NCBI RefSeq assembly: GCF_003129465.1
Contig: NZ_QFFF01000001.1
Location: forward strand, 496,001 to 560,000
Direction: 5' to 3'
Source: Sphingosinicella humi
GTDB lineage: Bacteria > Pseudomonadota > Alphaproteobacteria > Sphingomonadales > Sphingomonadaceae
Length of the DNA stretch: 64,000 nt
Within the stretch, counting starts at the first letter, position 1. Each line of letters opens with the position of its first letter. Below are positions 51,130-64,000 of the stretch, one piece after another. The position numbers and the translations under genes are program-made. Under the pieces are notes generated by a model. That model ran no database searches and was not told where the DNA came from. It saw only the letters and a list, made by a program, of their open reading frames with translations.

Positions 51130-51309
51130 GACCGCGCGGAATAGCCAAAACTGGTAAGCAAGCCGTGAAGACGGCCGCCGGCACTCGGGGGTTGCCGTAG
51201 CAGCGCGGGGGCGGGTGTAAGGTCTTCTTAAACCTCTGCCACGCTACTGGGAGACCTGCCCGGGCGAAGGGCTCTCCCCGGGCCGATGCCGACGGAGGGA
51301 ATGTTGCTG

Positions 51310-51933
51310 ATGACGAGCGCCCTGGAGGAGACGACCTTCTCCTTTTCTCGAGACGTGCCGGCCCGGCCACCGGAGCGCCGGCGGGAGGCGCGGTATCTCA
51401 CCATCTTGCGCGTCGGCACGCTGATCGTCGACGGACGCCGCGAGCTTTGCCTTATCCGGAATATTTCGGCCGGCGGGCTGATGGCCCATGTCTATTCCAC
51501 CTTCGAGGAAGGGCAGCGCCTTTCCGTCGAGCTCAAGACGAACGACCAGGTGAGCGGCAGCGTCACCTGGTGCGACGGGTCCAACATCGGCGTCGGGTTC
51601 GACGAGCCGATCGACGTCGAGGAGCTGCTCACCGTCGAACCCGTCCTCCCCAATGGATGGAAGCCGCGTCTCCCGCGCGTCGAGATCGATCGCCTGGCGA
51701 CGCTGCGCGTCGGCGCCGCCATTCATTGGGTAAACACCCGCGACATCTCCCAGGGCGGCATCAAGATCGAGACCGACCAACCGCTCGAGCCGGGCCAGGA
51801 GGTGGTCCTGTCGCTGGAGAAATTCCGTCCAATCCCAGGCGCCGTGCGCTGGTATCAGGACGGCTTCGCCGGCATCGCCTTCAACCAGGTGATCCCGTTC
51901 CGAGAGTTGATGATCTGGCTGAAAGAAAGTTGA
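51310..51933 (+). CDS. Protein with two PilZ-like domains
   Basis: About 207 aa. The first PilZ domain (about 20-110) has RRREARYLT and RNISAGGLMA, a good match to the RxxxR and [D/N]xSxxG c-di-GMP motifs. The second (about 120-205) has TRDISQGGIKIE but only a weak RxxxR. The first may therefore bind c-di-GMP and the second be degenerate. GGAGGG lies in codons upstream of the ATG used here, so starts from 51286 to 51310 are possible. A GC-rich hairpin (about 51250-51283) sits in the leader. PilZ proteins often regulate matrix production, and a curlin cluster begins 200 bp downstream on the other strand. Confidence 0.87.
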   Translation: MTSALEETTFSFSRDVPARPPERRREARYLTILRVGTLIVDGRRELCLIRNISAGGLMAHVYSTFEEGQRLSVELKTNDQVSGSVTWCDGSNIGVGFDEPIDVEELLTVEPVLPNGWKPRLPRVEIDRLATLRVGAAIHWVNTRDISQGGIKIETDQPLEPGQEVVLSLEKFRPIPGAVRWYQDGFAGIAFNQVIPFRELMIWLKES

Positions 51934-52138: not shown

Positions 52139-52492
52139 TTAGCGGTTCGTAGAAGCCGCGCTTCTCTCATAGGCCGCCCCGCCCTCGGGCGAGACCTTGA
52201 GTATGGCCGACCAACCCCTGTCCGCCTGTCCCAGAGTGACGGTCGCGAGCGTCGCCGCCCTTCCGGGCTGCAGATGCGCTTCCCCCCGCTGCACCGAGCG
52301 ATTGCCCCCCTCGCTCGCTACCACTTCCAACGAATAGCGGGCGGTCATCGCGACGTCCGAGTCTCCAATCACGGTCAGCCGGACGCCCTCGCCCACGGGC
52401 TCGGCGGCGAGGCGGATGGGCACAGCCTCGGATGCCGGCGCACCGGTCATCGCGGCCGCAAAGAAAGCCAAGGGTCCGAAGAGGCCTGCCAT
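52139..52492 (-). CDS. csgH: CsgH-like curli assembly chaperone
   Basis: A 117-aa protein with a signal peptide (to about residue 22) and a single beta-sandwich domain (VPIRLAAEPVGEGVRLTVIG..., ARYSLEVVASEGGNRSVQRGEAHLQPGRAATLATVTLG). It resembles CsgH, the alphaproteobacterial counterpart of CsgC that prevents premature curli amyloid formation in the periplasm. AAGGAA precedes the ATG. It is the last gene of the curlin run, 34 bp after the unknown secreted protein. The assignment rests on fold-level resemblance plus context. Confidence 0.8.
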   Translation of the reverse strand: MAGLFGPLAFFAAAMTGAPASEAVPIRLAAEPVGEGVRLTVIGDSDVAMTARYSLEVVASEGGNRSVQRGEAHLQPGRAATLATVTLGQADRGWSAILKVSPEGGAAYERSAASTNR

Positions 52493-52526: not shown

Positions 52527-53291
52527 TCATTGCGGCGGCGTCACACTCACCCCTTGGCCGATGATCTCCAATATCGCGGCCGCAGCGGCATCGATCGCGG
52601 GATTCTCCGCGGGGTCGTTCTTCGGTTGGTCCGTAGGCGCCGACGCGGGCTGGTTGAGCACCATCGAGGCGACGCCCAGCCCTTCCAACGTGGCCGCGTC
52701 TCCCTCTTTGGCGAGGCGGCGCGTCACTTCCGTGCGGCTCGCGGGATCTTCGCGCAGGCGCTGCTGGACGATCAGCCTTTGCTCGGGGGAGAGAAGCGTG
52801 GGGTCCGGCCGGACGAACTCGGCCGAGCGTGTCTCGATAACGCGCGCGCACACCTTGGCCTTCGCCTGCGCCTCGTCGGCGGGATCGCACGCATCCTCGC
52901 CGCCCTCGACGGGCGCGATCGCGCCTGTGCGGCCCTCACTTCGCTCGGAAAGCGCCTGCGGCGGCTGCGCCGTCGGGCCACCCCGATAGAGCTGCGCCGG
53001 CGGCGCGGCATCGCGTTCGGCATCGCCAAGCTGCGTCGGCGGCGTGCGTTCCTCCCCGGCCGGGCTCAGTTGCTGCACCGACGGCGTGAGCGCCCCCGTC
53101 GCGCGCGGCGTCATCACCTCGCGGGTTCCACTCGAGACCTGCTCGATCGGCCCGGAGGAATCGCCGGCTGAGCGCACCTGCTCGACCTGGCCGAGCGGCT
53201 CCTGCGCCGCCGTCGGGGCGCAAAGCAGGGCGAGAAGGCCGAGGCCAAGCGCCACCTGAAGCGTGCGCTTCTCACCGCTGGACTGTGTCAT
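52527..53291 (-). CDS. Secreted unknown protein of the curli locus
   Basis: About 254 aa from the ATG at 53291 (AGGACAGC upstream); a longer reading from 53321 adds ten residues before the signal peptide. It has a signal peptide (cleavage near APTAAQ), then a Pro/Gly/Ser-rich disordered half, a CDPADEAQAKAKVC segment with two cysteines, and a helical part (LLSPEQRLIVQQRLREDPASR) before a C-terminal AAAAILEIIGQGVSVTPPQ. It is not CsgE, CsgF or CsgG. It sits between curlin genes and csgH, so a role in secretion or assembly of the amyloid is inferred. I know no named family. Confidence 0.8.
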   Translation of the reverse strand: MTQSSGEKRTLQVALGLGLLALLCAPTAAQEPLGQVEQVRSAGDSSGPIEQVSSGTREVMTPRATGALTPSVQQLSPAGEERTPPTQLGDAERDAAPPAQLYRGGPTAQPPQALSERSEGRTGAIAPVEGGEDACDPADEAQAKAKVCARVIETRSAEFVRPDPTLLSPEQRLIVQQRLREDPASRTEVTRRLAKEGDAATLEGLGVASMVLNQPASAPTDQPKNDPAENPAIDAAAAAILEIIGQGVSVTPPQ

Positions 53292-53390
53292 GGTCGCTGT
53301 CCTGTTCCCACGCTGGGTCATGCCTGCACGCAGGTTATAGCAGGGCCGGTGACGGAGACGAAATGCCAGCCATGTTGCCGGACGCCAGGG

Positions 53391-54143
53391 CTACCATCCA
53401 CCAGTCTGGGTGATGAGCAAGTTCCCACCGCCATTCTGAGTGATCTGGGTCGGCTGGTTGCCCTTGGGGAGATTGTTGCCGTTCTGGACCCAGACGAGGC
53501 GGTTGCCGTCGTTGTTCTGGGTGGCGTGCATCTCATTCTCGTCGCCCTGTTGCTTGAGCAGGGCCTGATTGTCCGACCCGTTCTGGACAAGCGACATCTG
53601 ATTGTCGGAGCCGAATTGGGCCATGATCGCGCCATTGCTGGCCGCGGTGGACGTCTGGCTCGCGGTCAGCTGATTACGATCGCCCGCCTGGACCGCATAG
53701 AGGACGGTCTCGCCAGCGCCTTGCTGCGAGACGGCGGCCCGGTTCTTCTCACCGAGCTGCTTGACCAGCGCGAAATCGCGATGGGTGCCCTTCTGCGTGA
53801 CGTCCGCCTGGTTGTCGTCGCCATGCTGCCAAACGATCGCGAGGGAGTCCGAATTGGTCTGGGTTACATCGGCGCGGTTATAGTCGCCGATCTGCGTGAT
53901 GTAGGCGCCATGGCCCGGGAGGGGCGTAATTTCGAAGTCGGGAACCTCGCCACCATGGCCATTGCCGGAGTTGCCCTGTTCTCCCTCGTTGCCATTATTG
54001 CCGTTGCACGGATTTCCCGTGCCGACACCGGGGCCGATACCACAGGGATCGCCGGGTGGAATTTTGTCATTGTCGGCCCATGCGGGCGTCGTCGAGACCA
54101 ACCCCAGCACGGCACATGCGGTGATTAGTATTCGTCTGCCCAT
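53391..54143 (-). CDS. Curlin-repeat protein with Gly/Asn-rich N-terminal linker (candidate minor subunit)
   Basis: About 250 aa, starting at an ATG with AAGGAG 6 nt upstream; a TTG 21 nt earlier is less likely. After a signal peptide (to about 23) comes DNDKIPPGDPCGIGPGVGTG and NGNNGNEGEQGNSGNGHGG: a linker with the only two Cys among these proteins. About eight curlin repeats follow (QIGDYNRADVTQ, QHGDDNQADVTQ, QLGEKNRAAVSQQG, QAGDRNQLTASQ, QFGSDNQMSLVQNG). It ends in LLITQTGGW rather than the NTAIVNQ cap of its neighbours. The smaller size and distinct ends suggest a nucleator-like (CsgB-type) or anchoring role; this is inference. It lies just after a terminator-like hairpin. Confidence 0.85.
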   Translation of the reverse strand: MGRRILITACAVLGLVSTTPAWADNDKIPPGDPCGIGPGVGTGNPCNGNNGNEGEQGNSGNGHGGEVPDFEITPLPGHGAYITQIGDYNRADVTQTNSDSLAIVWQHGDDNQADVTQKGTHRDFALVKQLGEKNRAAVSQQGAGETVLYAVQAGDRNQLTASQTSTAASNGAIMAQFGSDNQMSLVQNGSDNQALLKQQGDENEMHATQNNDGNRLVWVQNGNNLPKGNQPTQITQNGGGNLLITQTGGW

Positions 54144-54161
54144 CATCGGCTCCTTCACGTT

Positions 54162-54198
54162 CAAAAAGCCGGCTGGCGCCCAGTTCGGGCGCCAGCCG
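54162..54198 (-). terminator. Hairpin with T-tract after the 721-aa curlin gene
   Basis: On the minus strand CGGCTGGCGCC (54198-54188) pairs perfectly with GGCGCCAGCCG (54180-54170), an 11-bp stem, followed by TTTTT. It is the only intergenic hairpin of the array with a T-tract, so it should terminate part of the transcription before the 250-aa curlin gene. Confidence 0.7.
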
Positions 54199-54205
54199 TA
54201 GTTAC

Positions 54206-56371
54206 TTACTGACTGACGATGGCGAGGTTGCCGATGCCGGTCTGGCTGACCGTCGAGATCGACGCGCTCGCCTGCGTCACCTGCGCGCTGTTGTCCGTGC
54301 CATTCTGCGTGATGGTGGACAGGGCGCCGGCGCCCGACTGATCGACGGTGGCGATGTTGCCGTTGCCGGTCTGCGTCACGAAGGAGTCAGCCTCGGCGCT
54401 CTGCGTCACCGACGCCGAGTTGTTGGAACCGCCGCCTTGCGTGATCTCCGAGTAAGCCGAGAGGCTGCTCGCCGTCTGCGTCAGCGTGGCGGTGTTGTCG
54501 CCGGCATTCTGCGTCACGAGCGAAGAGCCGCTGTCGCCGAGTTGGGAGACAAAGGCCTGTGAACCGTCGGATCCGACATTCTGCGTCACGGTCGACGCAT
54601 TGGAATCGCCGATCTGCGAGACATAGGCTTCCGCATTGCCGTGCTGCGAGACGGTGGACACATTCTCCGCCCCGTCCTGGTCCACATCGGCCAGCGCACC
54701 GGCGCCGGTGATCGTCTGGATGACGTCGGACTCATTGTTGAGGCCGGTCTGGGTGACGAACGCTTCCATCCGCGGCGGAGCGCTGTTGGCGCCCGACTGC
54801 GAGACGTTCGAGTCGTTCCCTTCACCGTCCTGCGTGACGTTGGCGTAGCCGTCCTCGGCACTCTGCGTGATGTTGGAATAGTTGCCGATGCCGGCGAGGG
54901 AGCTGGTCTGCGATACGATCGCATCGGCGCCGCGCGCCGCCGTCCCCTGCGAGACGTCGGATTCGTTGCTGCCCCCCGACTGGGTCACGGAGGCGATCCC
55001 GAAACGCGCATTCTGGATGATGCCGGAATCGTTCGCATCGCCGGTCTGAGTGACCGTAGCGCTGACATCGTCGTTGCGCTGCTGGATGTCGGAGACGTTG
55101 TTGTTACCCGTCTGCGCGACCGACGCCACGGCGTTGTCACCGTTTTCGTCGGCCGGATTGAACGTGCCCGCGCCCTGGAAAATGGTGGAGCGGTTGTCCA
55201 CGCCATCCTGATCGACGCTGACCGACGCGCCATCAGCCCGCTGCGAGGCTTGCGAGTAGTTCCCGGAGCCGTTTTGCGCGATCGTCGCCGTGCTGTTCGA
55301 GTCGCCGATCTTATTGGCTTCGGCGGGCGGCGGACCGCCCTGGTCGAGCAGCGACTGATTTCCGTCACCCGTTTGCGTGACGCCGGCACTATTGCGCTGG
55401 CCGAGCTGGGTCACCGTGGAAATGCTGGCTCCATTTTGCGACACGGTCGCGCGATTCCCCGGAGCGCCCGCGGCCTCGTTGGACTGTGCGATATCCGAAA
55501 TCGCGCCGCCGTCCTGGCTCACCGTAGCGCTATGGCCTTCGCCCAGCTGATTGACGGTGGAGAGGTCGCCGCCATTCTGAGCAACGTCGGCGGTATTGGC
55601 ACTCCCTTCCTGCAGGACGAGCGAATAACCGTCCGTGCCATTCTGGGAGACACCAGCCACGTTGTCAGTGCCCGTCTGGATCACTCCTGAGAAGGAGGAG
55701 ATTCCGGCCTGGTTGGTGATCGCCGTGTTGCGATCGCCAACCTGGAGTACGCCCGATCCGTCGTTCAGCCCCGTCTGAGTGATGCTAGCGATGTTGCTAG
55801 TGCCCAGCTGAGCGATGCCCGCGCCGTCGGCCTCACCGGCCAGAACTTCCTCGACGGTCGGGATGGCCGGATCGGTGCCTGCTCCGGTCTGGCTGATCGT
55901 GGCGGTGTTGCCGCCACCGATCTGGAGAACTCCGGCGGCCTGGCTGTCGCCTTCCTGGGTGAGCTCCGCGCTGTTCTCCAGTCCGACCTGGACGATAAGG
56001 CCGTCATCGTCGACGCTGGCTTCGCCCTGGGTGACGGTTGCGCGGTTGTCGCCTTCCTGAAGGATGGTCAGGTCACCGTCGACACCCTGCTGGGTCACCG
56101 TCGCTTCATTGGACGGGTCGGTCGAGCCGAGGGCGATGGACTGCGTCTGGCTGATGGTGACGTTGTTGTTGTCGCCCGACTGGGTGACATTCGCCTGGTT
56201 GTTGGTGCCGTTCTGTTCGATCGTCGAGTCCGTATCGCCGGTCGATCCCGTCTGATTGACGGCGGCGTCGTTGCCGAGGCCATTCTGATTGACGACGGAG
56301 TCCGAAGCGAGCGCCGGGCCAGCAGCGAAAATCGCCGCAACCGAGACCCCCGTAAGAAACATCTTCTTCAC
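54206..56371 (-). CDS. Giant curlin-repeat protein (721 aa)
   Basis: A signal peptide (ending near AAGPALA, residue 22) is followed by an unbroken array of curlin repeats (N-x-A-x-V-x-Q-x-G pattern, period about 20-22 aa, hence roughly 30 repeats) and no other domain. Examples are NQANVTQSGDNNNVTISQ, GNTATISQTG and DNSAQVTQASASISTVSQ. No Cys. Each repeat gives a strand-turn-strand unit that should stack into a cross-beta fibre like CsgA, which has only five repeats. Several repeats carry longer loops (for example DPAIPTVEEVLAGEADGA). It ends in GNLAIVSQ. The GTG start is 8 nt after GGGGG. Part of the tandem array. Confidence 0.88.
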   Translation of the reverse strand: MKKMFLTGVSVAAIFAAGPALASDSVVNQNGLGNDAAVNQTGSTGDTDSTIEQNGTNNQANVTQSGDNNNVTISQTQSIALGSTDPSNEATVTQQGVDGDLTILQEGDNRATVTQGEASVDDDGLIVQVGLENSAELTQEGDSQAAGVLQIGGGNTATISQTGAGTDPAIPTVEEVLAGEADGAGIAQLGTSNIASITQTGLNDGSGVLQVGDRNTAITNQAGISSFSGVIQTGTDNVAGVSQNGTDGYSLVLQEGSANTADVAQNGGDLSTVNQLGEGHSATVSQDGGAISDIAQSNEAAGAPGNRATVSQNGASISTVTQLGQRNSAGVTQTGDGNQSLLDQGGPPPAEANKIGDSNSTATIAQNGSGNYSQASQRADGASVSVDQDGVDNRSTIFQGAGTFNPADENGDNAVASVAQTGNNNVSDIQQRNDDVSATVTQTGDANDSGIIQNARFGIASVTQSGGSNESDVSQGTAARGADAIVSQTSSLAGIGNYSNITQSAEDGYANVTQDGEGNDSNVSQSGANSAPPRMEAFVTQTGLNNESDVIQTITGAGALADVDQDGAENVSTVSQHGNAEAYVSQIGDSNASTVTQNVGSDGSQAFVSQLGDSGSSLVTQNAGDNTATLTQTASSLSAYSEITQGGGSNNSASVTQSAEADSFVTQTGNGNIATVDQSGAGALSTITQNGTDNSAQVTQASASISTVSQTGIGNLAIVSQ

Positions 56372-56400
56372 TGTTATTTCCCCCTTTTGAGCAGTTTACG

Positions 56401-56428
56401 GACCGGCGCCTCGCGAGAGGCGCCGGTC
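56401..56428. terminator. 12-bp hairpin between curlin genes
   Basis: GACCGGCGCCTC and GAGGCGCCGGTC form a perfect 12-bp stem with a 4-nt loop in the 63-bp gap. No T-tract on the minus strand, so it is more likely a partial attenuator or an mRNA 3'-end stabiliser than a strict terminator. Confidence 0.6.
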
Positions 56429-56434
56429 ACTTCG

Positions 56435-57439
56435 TTACTGATTGACGATGGCGGTGTTGCCCGTGCCGGTCTGAGCGACGACCGAGTCATTGCTGTCGCT
56501 CATCTGGCTGACCGTGGCCGAGTTGCCGCTGCCGCCCTGCGTGATCAGCGAGTCGTTGCCGTTGCCGACCTGGGTCAGCGAGGCGAACCCGTCGACGCCG
56601 GTCTGAGCGATGGTGGACGTGTTGAGGTTGCCGGTCTGGCTGGAGCTGGCGAAGTTGGCCGTCGCCGCCGTCTCGCTGAAGCCGGTCTGGCTGATCGTCG
56701 AGGTGTTGAGCGAGCCGTTCTGCATGGCCGACGCTTCAGCGCCCAGGGCAAACTCCGGCGGCGTGGCTGAGAAACCGTCCGAAACCTGCTGGATATAGAC
56801 GCTGTTGGTGCCACCAGTGCCATTCTGATTGACCGTCGCGAGCGCACCGCCATTCTGGAAATTCTGCACGACCGACGACGTGTTCTGGACGCCGGCCTGA
56901 GTGATGCTCGCGTCGTTATCGGTGGAGGTGAAGGAACCATAGTCGGAGACGTTCTCGCCGCCCGTCTGGCTCACCGTCACCTGTCCGCTGACGGCGTTGC
57001 GGCCCTGCTGAACGATGGAGCTGTTCTGCCCATAACCGCCCGCATTGTGAGTTTGGGTGACGCTGACCGTCGAGCCCGTGCCGCTGAGACCGAAGCCGTT
57101 CACATTGTCCTGGACCACCGTCGACACGTTGGCCTGGCTGGTGGCGGCGCTGCTGGTGCCGTCATCGCTCTGGGTCACGTCGACGGTGCTCTCCGGCGGA
57201 CGATCGTCAGCGCTGGTCGTCACCGTGGACGTCGATCCGGTGACGCCGTCCTGGTTGACGTTGACGGTGCCCCCGCCCGTCTGCGTGATCGTCGAAATAT
57301 CTGTCGCGCCAGTCTGGTCGACCGTGGCGACGGCGCTGCTGCCCGTCTGGTCTACTGTCGAGCTGTTGTTCTGCGCCATGGCGGGAGCGGCCACGAGAAG
57401 GGCTGCGATTGACGCGCCAGTAAGAAGAATGCGGTTCAT
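56435..57439 (-). CDS. Curlin-repeat protein (334 aa)
   Basis: Signal peptide (to about 22, ending APAMAQ), then about 14 curlin repeats such as SSTVDQTGSSAVATVDQTG, VSVTQTHNAGGYGQNSSIVQQG and NTSTIAQTGVDGFASLTQVG. No Cys. Shortest of the five NTAIVNQ-type proteins. The C-terminal NDSVVAQTGTGNTAIVNQ cap is shared almost exactly with the 823-aa and the window-edge proteins. The ATG is preceded by AGGAAAGGAA. Would be an amyloid subunit exported to the surface. Confidence 0.88.
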   Translation of the reverse strand: MNRILLTGASIAALLVAAPAMAQNNSSTVDQTGSSAVATVDQTGATDISTITQTGGGTVNVNQDGVTGSTSTVTTSADDRPPESTVDVTQSDDGTSSAATSQANVSTVVQDNVNGFGLSGTGSTVSVTQTHNAGGYGQNSSIVQQGRNAVSGQVTVSQTGGENVSDYGSFTSTDNDASITQAGVQNTSSVVQNFQNGGALATVNQNGTGGTNSVYIQQVSDGFSATPPEFALGAEASAMQNGSLNTSTISQTGFSETAATANFASSSQTGNLNTSTIAQTGVDGFASLTQVGNGNDSLITQGGSGNSATVSQMSDSNDSVVAQTGTGNTAIVNQ

Positions 57440-57469
57440 GTTCAGTTCCTTTCCTGATCGTCAGAGGAA

Positions 57470-57498
57470 CCGGCCGGCGCTCCGAAGATGCCGGCCGG
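57470..57498. terminator. 9-bp hairpin between curlin genes
   Basis: CCGGCCGGC (57470-57478) and GCCGGCCGG (57490-57498) pair around an 11-nt loop in the 65-bp gap. No T-tract on the minus strand. Confidence 0.55.
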
Positions 57499-57504
57499 CT
57501 ACGC

Positions 57505-59976
57505 TTACTGATTGACGATGGCGGTGTTGCCGGTGCCGCCCTGGGTGACGGTGGAGAAATTCCCGTCGCTTGCCTGGGTCACGTAGGCGTTGTTCAGACC
57601 GCCGCCCTGAGTGATGGTCGAGTTGTTGCCGCTGCCCGACTGGACAAGGCGCGCTTCGTTGTCGTTGCCGCCCTGGTCGATGAGCGAGACGTTGCCGTCT
57701 CCGGACTGGGCGACGTCGACCGTGTTATCGAGCGACAGGTTGACATCGCCGTCCAAGGTCGCGCTACCCGTCTGGTTGATCACAGAGCTATTGCCGTCGC
57801 CCGACTGGCGAACGCCGGTGCTCAGGTTGAAGTTGGTGAGGAACCCGGACTGGTTGAGCTCCGAGGTGTTGCCGGATCCGGTCTGGCTGACATTGGCGAC
57901 GGTTGCGTGACCGGTCTGGAGAACGGTCGAGCGGTTGTCACTCGCTGCCTGATTGATGAGGGCAAAGTTCGACGCGCCGGTCTGGGTGACATCGGAGCTG
58001 TTATCCTGTCCGACCTGGGTCACATAAGCGAGGCCGGCCGTATAGCTCCCGGAACCGTCGGAGAAGATGCCCGCACCTTGGGCCGACGACTGGTTCACCG
58101 TCGACGTCAAATTGGCACCGTTCTGACTGACCACGGCCCGATTTGTGGCCGTGCTCTGGTTGATGATGGAGCTGTTGTCGTCGCCGATCTGGCTCACGAT
58201 AGCGGTCGAGTCCTCGCCCGACTGGTCGATCAGCGAGACGTTGGTCGGCGCGTTCAGCGGATCGCCGAGATTGGCGCCGCGCTGCGTCACCGACGCCGAC
58301 GTGCCGTCGGCGGACTGGGTGATGCGCGAGGCGTTCCGGGCGAAATCGCCGGGCGCGACGCTGCCCTGGTCGACGGTGGCCGAGCCGACTGCCGTCTGAT
58401 CGATCACCGAGGTGTTGTAGACGCCGCTCTGCGTCACGCCCGCGCTGGCGGCCGCGCTCTGGTCGATGCTGGAGCGATTGAGCGTGCCGTTCTGCCCCAG
58501 CGTCGCGCTGGCGCCGTCGGCAGATTGATCGATCAGCGAGACGTTGTTGGCGAAGGCTTCACCCGCCGACGAGGGCGGCAGCGTGTCGCCGTCCCAGTTG
58601 CGCGAGCCGAGCGTGTTGGCCCCTCCAGTCTGGGTGACATTGGCCGAAGCGCCCGCCGTTTGGGTGATCCGCGACGTGTTGTCGCTGCTCGTCTGCTCGA
58701 CGATCGCGCTTCCACCATCCCCGGTCTGATCGATGTTCGATGCGTTGCGATCGCCGGTCTGGACAACGTCGGCCAGGTTCACGCCACCGGCCTGATTGAT
58801 CAGGCTCGTATTTGAAGCGCCATCCTGGTCCGTCGCCGCCGTGGCATCGCCCGAAGCCTGGTTGATTTCGGAATCGTTGCCGATTCCGTCCTGCGCGATG
58901 GTCGCCGAAGCGGGCGAGGTGTCCTGCGTGATCCGCGCCTGATTGCCCGTGCCCTCCTGGAAGATGTCGGCGAAGGCGTTTTCGGCCGGAACGGCCGGCA
59001 GGTTCGGCGGGCTGGCGTCGCCCGTGCCGTCGGCCGTCTGCCGGATGACATTGGCATTGTTGCCGGTGCCGTCCTGGTAGACGTTCGCCTGCGCGAAATC
59101 GCCGTCCTGATCGATGTTGGAGATGTTGCTGGTGCCGAACTGCTGGACATCGGCGATCTGGTTTCCGCCGCTCTGATTGACGTCGGACTGATTGCCGGTG
59201 CCGTCCTGCAGCACGCCCACGCTCGCCGTCGGCTCCTCGTTCTCCAGGTCGTTGTCCGGATCGCCGACATCACCATTGACGCCGGTCTGGATGACGCCCG
59301 AACGGTTGCCGTCGCCGATCTGGCGGACGTTGGCCTCGTTGTAGAGATTGGTCTGGAGGATGTTCGAGTCGCTCGATCCGTCCTGGTAGACCGCCGCATT
59401 ATGCGGGCCGCCATTCTGGGTGATGATCGAACTGGCGCTTCCGCTTTCCTGGATCACGCTCGCGCGCTGATCGAGGCCGGTCTGGTTGATATCGCTGACG
59501 GCGTCGCTCGTGCCGGCACCCTGGCTGACATAGGCCTGGCCACCCCGGCCGGATTGGTCGATGAACGATCCGGTCAGCGAGCCCTTGCCCTGGCCGGAGC
59601 CGCTTTGCACGACCTCCGCGCTGTTGCTGGCGCCGCCAAAGGCGTTCGTCTGGTTGATTTCGGAGTTCATGTCGGAACTGGCGCTCGTCTGCTCGACGGA
59701 GGCGTTGTTGTCGCCGGTCTGGTTGACCTGCGAATAGCCACCGGCGCCATTCTGGGTGACCGAAGCGTCGTTGCTGATGCCGTCCCCGCTTGCGCTCGCG
59801 GAGTTGAGCGTTCCGTTCTGACTTACATCGGATTCATTGTCGCTTCCGCCCTGAGTAACGCTCGCCTGATTGGCATTGCCAGTCTGGCCAACTTCCGAAT
59901 CGTTGCTCTGCGCGATCGCCGGGGCTGTCGCGAGAAGCGCCGCAATCGACGCGCTGGTGAAGAGAATGCATTTCAT
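57505..59976 (-). CDS. Giant curlin-repeat protein (823 aa)
   Basis: The largest complete subunit in the window. After a signal peptide (to about 22, ending APAIAQ) come some 35-38 curlin repeats (GNANQASVTQGGSDNESDVSQNG, QASVIQESGSASSIITQNGG, DNTSRITQTAGASANVTQTGG). No Cys, few aromatics and few charged residues except Asp/Glu in turns. Several repeats hold longer insertions (for example TLGSRNWDGDTLPPSSAGE) that would loop out of the solenoid. It ends in the TVTQGGTGNTAIVNQ cap. The start ATG lies 9 nt after GGAAGGAC. Confidence 0.88.
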   Translation of the reverse strand: MKCILFTSASIAALLATAPAIAQSNDSEVGQTGNANQASVTQGGSDNESDVSQNGTLNSASASGDGISNDASVTQNGAGGYSQVNQTGDNNASVEQTSASSDMNSEINQTNAFGGASNSAEVVQSGSGQGKGSLTGSFIDQSGRGGQAYVSQGAGTSDAVSDINQTGLDQRASVIQESGSASSIITQNGGPHNAAVYQDGSSDSNILQTNLYNEANVRQIGDGNRSGVIQTGVNGDVGDPDNDLENEEPTASVGVLQDGTGNQSDVNQSGGNQIADVQQFGTSNISNIDQDGDFAQANVYQDGTGNNANVIRQTADGTGDASPPNLPAVPAENAFADIFQEGTGNQARITQDTSPASATIAQDGIGNDSEINQASGDATAATDQDGASNTSLINQAGGVNLADVVQTGDRNASNIDQTGDGGSAIVEQTSSDNTSRITQTAGASANVTQTGGANTLGSRNWDGDTLPPSSAGEAFANNVSLIDQSADGASATLGQNGTLNRSSIDQSAAASAGVTQSGVYNTSVIDQTAVGSATVDQGSVAPGDFARNASRITQSADGTSASVTQRGANLGDPLNAPTNVSLIDQSGEDSTAIVSQIGDDNSSIINQSTATNRAVVSQNGANLTSTVNQSSAQGAGIFSDGSGSYTAGLAYVTQVGQDNSSDVTQTGASNFALINQAASDNRSTVLQTGHATVANVSQTGSGNTSELNQSGFLTNFNLSTGVRQSGDGNSSVINQTGSATLDGDVNLSLDNTVDVAQSGDGNVSLIDQGGNDNEARLVQSGSGNNSTITQGGGLNNAYVTQASDGNFSTVTQGGTGNTAIVNQ

Positions 59977-60008
59977 TGTCTTCGTCCTTCCTCTCTGAGG
60001 GCGGACAG

Positions 60009-60037
60009 CGGCCGGCGTCCCTGAAGGACGCCGGCCG
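60009..60037. terminator. 12-bp hairpin between curlin genes
   Basis: CGGCCGGCGTCC (60009-60020) and GGACGCCGGCCG (60026-60037) form a perfect 12-bp stem with a 5-nt loop, extended by flanking GGAC/GTCC. No T-tract on the minus strand. Confidence 0.6.
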
Positions 60038-60043
60038 TCCGTC

Positions 60044-61846
60044 TTATTGGTTGACCACGGCCACGTTGGCCGTGCCGGTCTGCATCACGCTCGACACGTT
60101 GCTGTCCGAAGCCTGCGTGACAGTGGCCGAGTGGCCGCTGCCCTGCTGCGAGATACCGGACAGGTTGTTCGAGCCGGACTGATCCAGGATGGCATCGTTC
60201 TCGGCGCCGTCCTGGAAGATGGTCGACGTGTTGAAATTGCCGCCCTGCAACGCGCTGGCGAAGTTGCCGGACGAGGCGCCGGCGATCAGCGTGTTGGTCT
60301 GGTTGATCGTGCTGCTGTTGTTGCTGCCGCCCTGGCTGGACGACGCGCTCATCAGACGGGCGCTGTTGGTACCATCACCGCCAAACTGGTTGATGGTGCT
60401 GGTGTTGCTGCTGCCGCCCTGGGTGATCGAAGCCGTGGCGACGATCGGGTCGGGCCCGCCAGCGGGGTTCGGCGCATTGTTCACGCTCTGGTTGATCGTG
60501 GCGGTGTTGAAATCACCGATCTGCTCGACGAATGCATCGGACAGCTGGCCAGCCTGCGTGACGAAGGCGTCGTTGTCGCTGCCGCTCTGGGTGACGCCGA
60601 CTAAGCCGACATCATCGCCAGCGGAGTTGGCGAAGCCCGACTGGTTGACGTTCGACAGGTTGCGGTCGCCGGACTGCAGAACGTTGAGATCGCCCGAAGT
60701 GCCCGACTGCGTGGCGTAGGACTCGTTGCTGCTGCCCGTCTGTGTAACCAGAGCTTCCTGACCATTGGTCTGGTAGGGGGTGCCCGCGACACGCCCCTGG
60801 GACAGATCGGAAATATTGTTCGACCCGCCCTGGACGACGGTCGCCGTGGCGCCGGACGACGTCTGTTCGATATCCGAGCTGTTGGTGCTGCCCGTCTGCG
60901 TGACCGAGGCCGTCGCGCCGGCATCGTCCTGCTGGAGAATGACGGACGTGAGGCCGGTGCCGGTCTGGCTGACCGTCGCCGCGGCGTTGCTACCGAGCTG
61001 ATCGATGTCCGAGTTGTTGCCGTCACCATCCTGGTCGACGGTGGCGTCGTTGCCATTGCCCAACTGGTTGACGTCCGAGCGGCTGTCGCCCGCCTGCGTC
61101 ACGTCGGCGAAGTTGCCGTTGCCGTTCTGCAGGATCAGCGAAGTCGCGCCGACGCCGCTCTGGTCGACGAAAGCATCGTTGCTGTTGCCGAGCTGATCGA
61201 TGGCCGACGACACGCCATCGGTATCCTCGCCGCTCTGCGTCACCGCGGCTTCGTTGCTGTTGCCGACCTGGTTGATGTCGGAGCTGGCATTGCCGCTGAG
61301 CTGCTGCGCGACGGTACCGCGGTTGCCGCCTCCGCTCTGCGTGGTGATGGCATAGAGATTGTCACCGCGCTGATGGGTCGCCGCATAGTTCTCGGTGCCG
61401 TCGCCAGGAACGGTCTCCTGGTCGATAACCGCCTGCTGGCCCTCGCCCGGAGCATAAGCCTGGGCGACCTGGGCACGGTTGTTGCCCGTCTGGTCGATCT
61501 GCACCGAGCCGTTGTCGCCGTTCTGGGTTACATCGGCGATGTTGCTGAGCTGCTGGCTGTAGGGCTCTTCGCTCTGCGGAACGCCCGTCGGGGGCACGTC
61601 GGCGCCGTCCTGATTGATAGTGGCGGTGTTGTTTTCGCTGCCAGCGCCCTGGCGAAGCACCGTCCAGTTGTCGGCGCCCTGCTGGGTGACGGTTGCATCA
61701 CTGCCCGTCGTGTTGGTCTGGATGACTTCCGCCTGCTGGGCGAGGCCGCCCTGCGTGACGGTCGCCTCGTTGGTGCCCGCGGCGAAAGCCGGGACGGTGG
61801 CAAAGAGCGCAATGGCGGAAACCGAGCTAAGAATGGTACGCTTCAT
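60044..61846 (-). CDS. Giant curlin-repeat protein (600 aa)
   Basis: Starts at the ATG at 61846 (GGAGGACC upstream), where a signal peptide (to about 22, ending VPAFAA) begins; an in-frame reading from 61897 adds 17 unrelated residues. About 27 curlin repeats follow, with markers such as NEAAVTQSGEDTDGVSSAIDQLG, NDAFVDQSGVGATSLILQNG and DLNVLQSGDRNLSNVNQSG. The first repeats differ most from the consensus (QQAEVIQTNTTGSDATVTQQ). It ends in a cap variant, SVMQTGTANVAVVNQ. No Cys. Confidence 0.88.
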   Translation of the reverse strand: MKRTILSSVSAIALFATVPAFAAGTNEATVTQGGLAQQAEVIQTNTTGSDATVTQQGADNWTVLRQGAGSENNTATINQDGADVPPTGVPQSEEPYSQQLSNIADVTQNGDNGSVQIDQTGNNRAQVAQAYAPGEGQQAVIDQETVPGDGTENYAATHQRGDNLYAITTQSGGGNRGTVAQQLSGNASSDINQVGNSNEAAVTQSGEDTDGVSSAIDQLGNSNDAFVDQSGVGATSLILQNGNGNFADVTQAGDSRSDVNQLGNGNDATVDQDGDGNNSDIDQLGSNAAATVSQTGTGLTSVILQQDDAGATASVTQTGSTNSSDIEQTSSGATATVVQGGSNNISDLSQGRVAGTPYQTNGQEALVTQTGSSNESYATQSGTSGDLNVLQSGDRNLSNVNQSGFANSAGDDVGLVGVTQSGSDNDAFVTQAGQLSDAFVEQIGDFNTATINQSVNNAPNPAGGPDPIVATASITQGGSSNTSTINQFGGDGTNSARLMSASSSQGGSNNSSTINQTNTLIAGASSGNFASALQGGNFNTSTIFQDGAENDAILDQSGSNNLSGISQQGSGHSATVTQASDSNVSSVMQTGTANVAVVNQ

Positions 61847-61874
61847 GTTTAGGTCCTCCCGAAAATGGCCGAAG

Positions 61875-61906
61875 CCGATCGGCGTCCCCGAAGGCACGCC
61901 GATCGG
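61875..61906. terminator. 11-bp hairpin between curlin genes
   Basis: CCGATCGGCGT (61875-61885) and ACGCCGATCGG (61896-61906) pair around a 10-nt loop in the 68-bp gap. No T-tract on the minus strand. Confidence 0.55.
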
Positions 61907-61914
61907 GTCAGCGG

Positions 61915-64000
61915 TTACTGATTGACGATGGCGGTGTTGCCGGTGCCGCCCTGGGTGATCGTCGAGACATTGAAGTTCGACGACTGAGTTACCGTGGCGG
62001 TGTTGAGATCGCCCGCCTGAGTGATCGTCGACAGGTTGTCGCTGCCGGACTGGGTCACGGTTGCGCTGAGATTGTCATTGGTATTGTCAGCGTCGGCCAG
62101 GCCCTGATCGATGAACGAGCTATTGTTGTCCCCGGTCTGGGTCACGTTGGCGAACATGGCGCCATTATTTCCGGCATTGCCTTGGTTGATCGACGAGTAG
62201 TTGCTGACGCCACCCTGATCGACCTCCGCGTAGCCCTGACGGCCGTTCTGCAAGATGTCGGACTCGGCATCGACGCTGCCCGCCCGCTGCAGGACGCCGG
62301 CGCCACCCTGGTCGGTCGGAGCCTGCGCCTGATCGTTGACGACGTTGCTCGGCCCGTTCTGGATGACCGACGAGCGGCCGTTGGTCCCGAGCTGATCGAC
62401 GAAGGCGTTGTTGCCGAGGCCGTTCTGCACGATCGCCGAGTCGTTGCTGCTGCCGATCTGCTCGACCTCAGCCCGATTGGAACGCGTGTTCTGCGTAATG
62501 ACCGAACTATTGTCGCTGCCCTGCTGGTTCGCGACTGCACGACTGTTGGCGCCGTTCTGATTGACGTCTGAGTTGTTATTCGTTCCGCTCTGGTCGACAT
62601 CGACGAGGTTCCCAACATTCGTGATGCCGGGCGTCACCGAATTCTGGTCGACAGTCGAAATGTTACTCGAACCGGTCTGGTCGACAGTCACAACCTGGCC
62701 GTTGGTGCCGCCGCCGGGGCCAGTCTGGCTGACGAAGGAATTGTTGCCCGACCCGTTCTGGTTGATGGTTGCTGAAGCTCCGGCGTCCATCGACTGCTGA
62801 ACGTTGGAGAGGTTACCGGTACCCGTCTGAGCGACCGTTGCGCTCGCTCCATCGCCCGACTGTTCGACACGGGATCCGTTTCCGTCGCCGCTCTGGTCGA
62901 CATCGACAATACCGTTGCTGCCGGTCTGGACGACGACGCTGTCATTGGTGTCACCGCTCTGAGCCACCGAAGCCTCGTTTAGCGTCGCGGCAGGGACGGC
63001 CATCGTGTTGGTCTCATCGACGCCCTGCAGGATCAGGCTCGTGTTGCCTGACCCGCTGCTCTGGTTGAGATTGGCCTCGTTGAAGGTGCCGAACTGGCGA
63101 ATTCGGGAGAAACCGTCGTCGCCAGCCTGCGCGACGTTGGCCAGATTGTCCTCGCCGAACTGCCGGTTGATGATCGACACATTGTCGTCGCCGCTCTGGT
63201 CGACATTTGCTGTATTGCGCCGACCGGCCTCGAAGACGTCCGAATTGTTCCGATCGCCCGTCTGGCTCACGCCGACATTGCCGGCATTTCCGGCCTGACG
63301 GAGCGTCGAGATGTTGTCATCACCCTCCTGGAGGACGCTAGCGGTGTTGTTGCTCGCGCTTTGGTCGACGTCCGAGGAGTTCCGGCTACCAAGCTGATTG
63401 ACGGTCGCCGAGTTGTTGCCGCCCGATTGGTCGACGTCGGAAAGGTTCAGCGCGCCATTCTGAACGACGAACGCATCGTTGCTGATCCCGCCCTGGTCGA
63501 CGGTCGAGATGCTTCCGTTGCCTGCGATTCCGGGACCGGAAGACTGGCTGACTCTGGCGATGGAGTCGACGCCGGTCTGGTTGATGATCGAGCTGTTGTC
63601 CTCGCCGCGTTGGGTCGAGATAGCACTCGAATTGGTCGCAGTCGCGCTCTGGAAGATGGTGGAGCTGTCGCCCTCGCCATCCTGATCGATCGTGGCATCC
63701 GCGTCGTCGGTGTCCTGATCGACCGTTGCCTGATTTACGCGCGGCGGCGTGCTCCGGTTGTTGTTCGTCTGGCTAACGGTCGCCGTCGAGCGCGCGCCCG
63801 ACTGATCGATGTCGGAGGCGTTGCCTTCGCCGCGCTGCGTCACGCCGGCGGTCGAAGCGCCGCTTTGGATGACGTTTGAATCGTTGGTCGGATCGGTGCT
63901 GTTCGGGCTGTCGGTGCCGCTGTCCTGGTCGACCGTCGCAGAAGCGCCGCTCGCGGCTGCCGATTGTTCGACGTTCGAGAGGTTGTTGGCTCCCGCCTGC
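61915..64000 (-). CDS. Giant curlin-repeat protein, N-terminus beyond window (at least 694 aa)
   Basis: The reading frame is open through the right edge of the window; the GTG at 63843 is an internal Val in a VTQRG repeat, not a start. Translating on to the edge continues the curlin pattern (NNLSNVEQSAAASGASATVDQ and NVIQSGASTAGVTQRG). At least about 31 repeats are visible. Compared with its neighbours it has more N-x-S-x-V-D-Q repeats and some Arg-rich ones (DDNVSIINRQFGEDNLANV). It ends in the TITQGGTGNTAIVNQ cap. No Cys. It is the most upstream (5') gene of the array in the window; further genes of the locus lie to its right. Confidence 0.88.
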   Translation of the reverse strand, partial: QAGANNLSNVEQSAAASGASATVDQDSGTDSPNSTDPTNDSNVIQSGASTAGVTQRGEGNASDIDQSGARSTATVSQTNNNRSTPPRVNQATVDQDTDDADATIDQDGEGDSSTIFQSATATNSSAISTQRGEDNSSIINQTGVDSIARVSQSSGPGIAGNGSISTVDQGGISNDAFVVQNGALNLSDVDQSGGNNSATVNQLGSRNSSDVDQSASNNTASVLQEGDDNISTLRQAGNAGNVGVSQTGDRNNSDVFEAGRRNTANVDQSGDDNVSIINRQFGEDNLANVAQAGDDGFSRIRQFGTFNEANLNQSSGSGNTSLILQGVDETNTMAVPAATLNEASVAQSGDTNDSVVVQTGSNGIVDVDQSGDGNGSRVEQSGDGASATVAQTGTGNLSNVQQSMDAGASATINQNGSGNNSFVSQTGPGGGTNGQVVTVDQTGSSNISTVDQNSVTPGITNVGNLVDVDQSGTNNNSDVNQNGANSRAVANQQGSDNSSVITQNTRSNRAEVEQIGSSNDSAIVQNGLGNNAFVDQLGTNGRSSVIQNGPSNVVNDQAQAPTDQGGAGVLQRAGSVDAESDILQNGRQGYAEVDQGGVSNYSSINQGNAGNNGAMFANVTQTGDNNSSFIDQGLADADNTNDNLSATVTQSGSDNLSTITQAGDLNTATVTQSSNFNVSTITQGGTGNTAIVNQ

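Follow-up and report, generated by a model that had tools for sequence, protein, structure and literature searches.

A curli operon of Sphingosinicella humi with five long curlins in tandem and hairpins in the gaps that follow them

The central feature of the window, the whole 64,000 nt stretch of Sphingosinicella humi DNA analyzed here, is a run of six curlin open reading frames (ORFs), all in tandem orientation on the minus strand, between positions 53391 and 64000 (Table 1). Their lengths in the ORF list of the window are 257, 721, 334, 823, 617 (600 from the ATG) and at least 694 amino acids, in agreement with the six tandem curlins and the lengths described in an earlier sequence-only reading. 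The last of these ORFs is cut by the window edge; in the genome sequence the gene continues for 197 bases beyond that edge and encodes a full protein of 760 amino acids. The short terminal curlin is 250–251 amino acids long if counted from the ATG pair at 54146/54143. Searching with the curlin repeat profile PF07012, as that reading had proposed, places all six proteins above the curated cut-off (E = 1e-13 to 2e-70), and in a scan of the 3.03-Mb genome all 34 of 34 curlin-repeat matches fall in this single locus.

The repeat period had been put at about 20–22 residues, and the commonest Q-Q spacing of 11 residues, equivalent to a two-strand repeat of 22, bears this out. The minimal strand motif QxGxxN occurs 28, 20, 26, 7, 24 and 8 times across the six curlins, compared with 0.3–1.1 times in shuffled sequences. 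The earlier description of these proteins as a signal peptide and curlin repeats only is right about the repeats and too narrow otherwise, as irregular blocks that bear loops are present in some giants, and in the short curlin about eight to nine repeats are preceded by an N-terminal stretch rich in Gly, Asn and Pro that contains two cysteines. Likewise, the "dozens of repeats" ascribed to each protein apply to four giants (∼27–34 by strand motif) and not to the 334-residue curlin (∼13) or the short curlin (∼9). The gaps between the genes measure 59–68 nt, and a single strand is used throughout. We take the antisense ORFs within the array to be by-products of the repeat codons. Recent growth of the array by DNA slippage was considered and rejected: no tandem array was detected by Tandem Repeats Finder across the curlin genes, and the repeats are therefore old and diverged.

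Table 1. Genes and intergenic hairpins of the curli locus, in gene order. Positions refer to the window except where L013 coordinates are given.
Feature	Position (strand)	Length	Profile match or description
csgF	L013:16406-16912, outside the window		PF10614 E=3.4e-35
csgG (outer-membrane pore)	L013:15434-16402, upstream of the curlins, outside the window	322 aa	PF03783 E=1.7e-57
Giant curlin 1	61915..64000 (-); full gene L013:12915-15197	760 aa	PF07012 E=2.4e-70, 21 stretches
Hairpin after giant 1	61875..61906 (-)	13 bp stem	CCGATCGGCGTGCCTTCGGGGACGCCGATCGG; z -2.8
Giant curlin 2	60044..61846 (-)	600 aa from ATG (617-aa ORF)	PF07012 E 2e-51, 17 stretches; block A
Hairpin after giant 2	60007..60039 (-)		z -7.4
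Giant curlin 3	57505..59976 (-)	823 aa	PF07012 E 3e-54, 23 stretches; block B2
Hairpin after giant 3	57468..57500 (-)		z -1.9
Curlin 4	56435..57439 (-)	334 aa	PF07012 E 2e-13, 6 stretches; block C
Hairpin after curlin 4	56401..56428 (-)		z -3.3
Giant curlin 5	54206..56371 (-)	721 aa	GTG start; PF07012 E 6e-55, 22 stretches
Hairpin between giant 5 and short curlin	54170..54198 (-)	13 bp	Terminator-like, GCTTTTT tail; z -4.7
Short terminal curlin	53391..54146 (-)	about 250 aa	PF07012 E 6e-15, 5 stretches
orf264	52527..53321 (-)	264 aa	Between short curlin and csgH; predicted signal sequence
csgH (curli chaperone)	52139..52492 (-)		NCBIfam NF041112 E=7.4e-18; PF21112 below its cut-off

Judged by its predicted genes, the locus is a complete type VIII secretion (curli) operon of the alphaproteobacterial branch. 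All genes point in the same direction, in the order csgF-csgG-five long curlins-short curlin-orf264-csgH, with csgG and csgF 3 nt apart. A LuxR-like gene, a possible counterpart of the regulator CsgD, lies 442 nt further upstream of csgFG; its GerE match (E = 0.021) is below the cut-off, and homologs of the protein occur in only 8 of 77 curli loci. On the other side of the operon is a PilZ-domain protein (51286-51933, plus strand), a possible link to c-di-GMP, for which no homolog was found beside other curli loci. In E. coli, CsgE is needed for efficient secretion. Here, no match to its profile PF10627 was found anywhere in the genome by a search that detected the E. coli control, and export of 800-residue chains may for this reason work differently. 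CsgE is reported as lacking in Alphaproteobacteria (PMC3521004), and its absence is therefore no bar to membership of that branch.

The gene immediately before csgH, orf264, gives nothing convincing in Pfam or NCBIfam. Homologs with 28%–48% identity were found at 38 of the 77 curli loci, usually directly after the short curlin, and the family shares a conserved region, GxDxCD...C...IETRSxEF...LSxEQRLL. It is a candidate for an additional assembly protein in systems that lack CsgE.

Many Sphingomonadales share this layout. A CsgG scan yielded 68 loci, mostly from this order; removal of duplicates and addition of the host's genus gave the 72 loci counted here, of which those cut by a contig end are undercounted. 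With long curlins defined as at least 300 residues and terminal short curlins as up to 310, two or more long curlins occur in 55 of the 72 loci. The numbers of loci with zero, one, two, three, four and five long curlins are 2, 15, 16, 25, 13 and 1, the S. humi locus alone having five, the highest count. The 179 long curlins have a median length of 555 residues and a maximum of 930, and 14 reach at least 800. The array is thus ordinary for its order, at the upper end of a common range. Within the host's genus curlins are found in 9 of 26 genomes, and the identical nine carry CsgF, such that the system is patchy, with its parts present or absent together. Four loci (L033, L034, L037 and L088) have an extra small curlin of 140–151 residues that separates the long curlins from the terminal short one.

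Among seven pairs of related species, every curlin comparison except one gives a dN/dS under 0.41, and the proteins are therefore kept by purifying selection. The exception, which shows no sign of such selection, is the third curlin of L047/L048, two related metagenome-assembled genomes (MAGs), at 1.12.

Six query sequences were used to compare curlins across loci. Outside a few blocks, most of each giant diverges quickly. Block A, residues ∼360–520 of the 600-residue giant 2, recurs in 15 other loci, 13 of which carry it in a single protein; the proteins that contain it have 393–883 residues, and its position varies from protein to protein. Block B2, residues ∼420–600 of the 823-residue giant 3, is found in 11 loci and in a single protein in 10 of the 11. 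Both blocks extend across Sphingomonadaceae and Erythrobacteraceae. Block C, residues 30–210 of the 334-residue curlin 4, is found in only three other loci and is 77% identical to part of an 865-residue giant of Sphingosinicella sp. LHD-64. Curlin 4 matches the C-terminal part of this 865-residue giant as well as the N-terminal half of a 651-residue giant, which indicates that giants split and fuse. No widely shared block was found for giants 1 and 5 in the related loci. Amino-acid identity of blocks A, B2 and C is 61%–78%, about what CsgG shows for the same pairs. Synonymous divergence is similar too, so the blocks are old and conserved rather than recently exchanged; for block A, recent horizontal exchange was rejected on this comparison with csgG. 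The age of blocks A and B2, their CsgG-like conservation and their presence mostly in one protein per locus argue for at least two distinct kinds of giant, beyond mere copies.

A short curlin is the last curlin in 67 of the 72 loci. It is mostly single-copy and has a conserved core and C terminus of its own. We propose, from this conservation, that it may serve as a nucleator or anchor in a CsgB-like role; NCBIfam models of both CsgB and CsgA match it, each below its cut-off. The segment PPGDPCGxGPGxGTGNPCNGNNGN, with its two cysteines (53930-54080, minus strand), is present in roughly 16 of the 67 terminal curlins, and the Cys-rich start segment occurs nowhere else in the genome. This segment occupies the position of the N22 export segment of E. 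coli CsgA.

Structure prediction, which the sequence-only reading had named as one of its refuting tests, gives a stacked β-solenoid for both proteins modeled singly. The AlphaFold model of the short curlin, built from an alignment of 46 relatives, has a mean pLDDT of 80, with the core above 90 and the N-terminal segment at low confidence. Its best solved match is the Pontibacter CsgA fibril (8c50; Z 19.7, rmsd 1.6 Å over 168 residues), and it also fits the E. coli CsgA fibril (8enq; Z 16.3, 1.3 Å, 111 residues). The AlphaFold model of the 600-residue giant comprises 46 strands with a mean pLDDT of 72; its C-terminal half is mostly above 80 and its N-terminal half is weak, at 45–60. This model too matches 8c50 best, with a Z of 32.9, twice that of the next match, over 342 residues at 8.1 Å. 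These matches come from a second look with VIA-align, plain Foldseek having returned nothing under E = 0.001 for either model and only weak or generic β-helix matches. Both modeled curlins are thus predicted to adopt a curli-like β-solenoid fold.

Each of the five gaps that follow a long curlin contains a G+C-rich hairpin of 12–14 bp. Across relatives, 148 of 166 gaps after long curlins contain a stem of 8 bp or more, versus 21 of 67 after the terminal short curlin; for stems of 10 bp or more the counts are 128 of 166 and 5 of 67. Control coding sequences have such stems in 13 of 146 and 2 of 146 cases, and control same-direction gaps of 40–150 nt from the same DNA in 9 of 45 and 2 of 45. The typical hairpin has a stem of ∼13 bp, ∼10 of them G-C pairs, and a median start 9 nt past the stop codon. 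Where near relatives differ in a stem pair, 71 substituted pairs still pair and 53 are broken, a count confined to gaps with a hairpin, in which loci are reused and pairs of loci are non-independent. Stem pairs changed on both sides and still pairing number 24, against a chance expectation of 12 double changes, paired or not. Hairpins that protect the upstream message include those of malEFG, puf and papBA, as cited in PMC5927463, and the curlin-gap hairpins may likewise stabilize the giants' messages. Alternatively, the hairpin of the last gap, which has a T tract, may partly terminate transcription before the short curlin. The literature searched holds no report of such hairpins for curli.

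We consider the following account of the operon probable. Each long curlin would pass unfolded through CsgG/CsgF and fold outside the cell as a ready-made long length of fiber, which would stack end to end with others into a matrix of several subunit kinds. CsgH would keep the subunits soluble in the periplasm, and the short terminal curlin would start or anchor the fibers, much as CsgB does. The hairpins after the long-curlin genes would stabilize the giants' messages or trim read-through, giving far more giant than short curlin. Of the amyloid matrix suggested earlier, either heteropolymeric or made of very long protomers, a multi-subunit curli matrix of long protomers appears the best reading, since the array is flanked by csgFG and csgH and both models resemble the fold of the curli fibril. 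A fuller version can be offered only tentatively: a composite fiber of several giants, some marked by blocks, in proportions set by the RNA hairpins, with a dedicated short subunit that has a Cys-containing start segment in some species, and with orf264 as an assembly protein.

The giants could instead be equivalent copies, retained because they supply dosage or a varied surface, with subunit identity irrelevant and repeat number drifting freely. Lengths and repeat numbers do vary widely between species, up to 930 residues and from zero to five long curlins per locus; outside their C-terminal ends, giants 1 and 5 show hardly any window of 60% identity elsewhere, and a C-terminal end is common to several giants of one genome. 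Free drift, however, would not keep blocks A and B2 at CsgG-like conservation in mostly single proteins across two families, and we regard this explanation as doubtful. A scenario in which the giants leave through the curli pore but remain individual long rods or adhesins on the cell surface, outside any fiber, seems to us improbable. A β-solenoid of ∼30 coils would already be a long rod, and there are other structural matches, that of the giant model to non-amyloid β-helix proteins at Z 14–16 and that of the short curlin to an ice-binding protein at Z 12.8. Nevertheless, the curli fibril 8c50 tops the matches of both models by a clear margin, every giant starts and ends with curlin-type strands suited to stacking, and the operon encodes CsgH, a member of the amyloid-inhibiting CsgC-like chaperone family (PMC4838910).

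A further question is whether the hairpins are plain transcription terminators that make every giant its own transcription unit. The region has 18 terminator-like sites where 13.3 are expected, a T tract follows the hairpin that separates giant 5 from the short curlin, and 40 of 148 hairpins have at least four T in the next eight bases. For the most part, though, the T tracts are weak (on average 2.6 T of 8), the distance of 28–30 nt from hairpin to start codon in the four giant-giant gaps of this locus leaves little room for a promoter, and none was detected there by a sigma-70 scan of the gaps. Plain termination is an unlikely role.

The E. coli system (csgBAC-csgDEFG) has in common with this locus the curlin repeats, the CsgG pore, CsgF, the predicted stacked β-solenoid and a short, possibly nucleating subunit. 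In contrast to its one CsgA of about 150 residues and five repeats, there are five long subunits here; CsgE is missing, CsgH replaces CsgC, the genes run in a single direction with hairpins between the subunit genes, and orf264 is additional. Closer are the alphaproteobacterial csgH operons, which, in the material available from Dueholm et al., 2012 (PMC3521004), likewise have no CsgC or CsgE, csgH beside the curlins, long repeat arrays and several csgA/B genes, there up to six; CsgD, too, is lacking in them. Subunits there reach 22 repeats and 529 residues, shorter than the longest found here, and that material does not mention hairpins, blocks or orf264. Sleutel et al., 2023 (PMC10192328), in their "curliome" survey, record subunits of 4–62 repeats and as many as 30 copies in one genome. 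Its long β-solenoid subunits, present in many copies and with regular and degenerate repeats, include the R15.5 CsgA of Pontibacter korlensis (8c50). The sections used here class single subunits by repeat type and do not deal with how operons are laid out, hairpins in the gaps or conserved blocks. The earlier view that this is not a characterized system holds insofar as the literature searched includes no experimental study of such an operon; it does not hold for long and multi-copy curlins as such, already catalogued in both surveys, nor for a layout common in Sphingomonadales. To our knowledge, within that literature, the hairpin rule, the signature blocks, orf264 and the short curlin's own conserved sequence are undescribed.

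Knowledge of curli, the model functional amyloid, derives almost entirely from one short E. coli subunit. In an entire bacterial order, the subunits are four to six times longer, with several used together and CsgE apparently missing. Sphingomonadales curli can reveal how very long unfolded amyloid chains pass through the pore and what sets the proportions of the subunits, and the hairpin pattern opens this question of dosage to ordinary RNA-seq. The long protomers are also of interest for protein materials.
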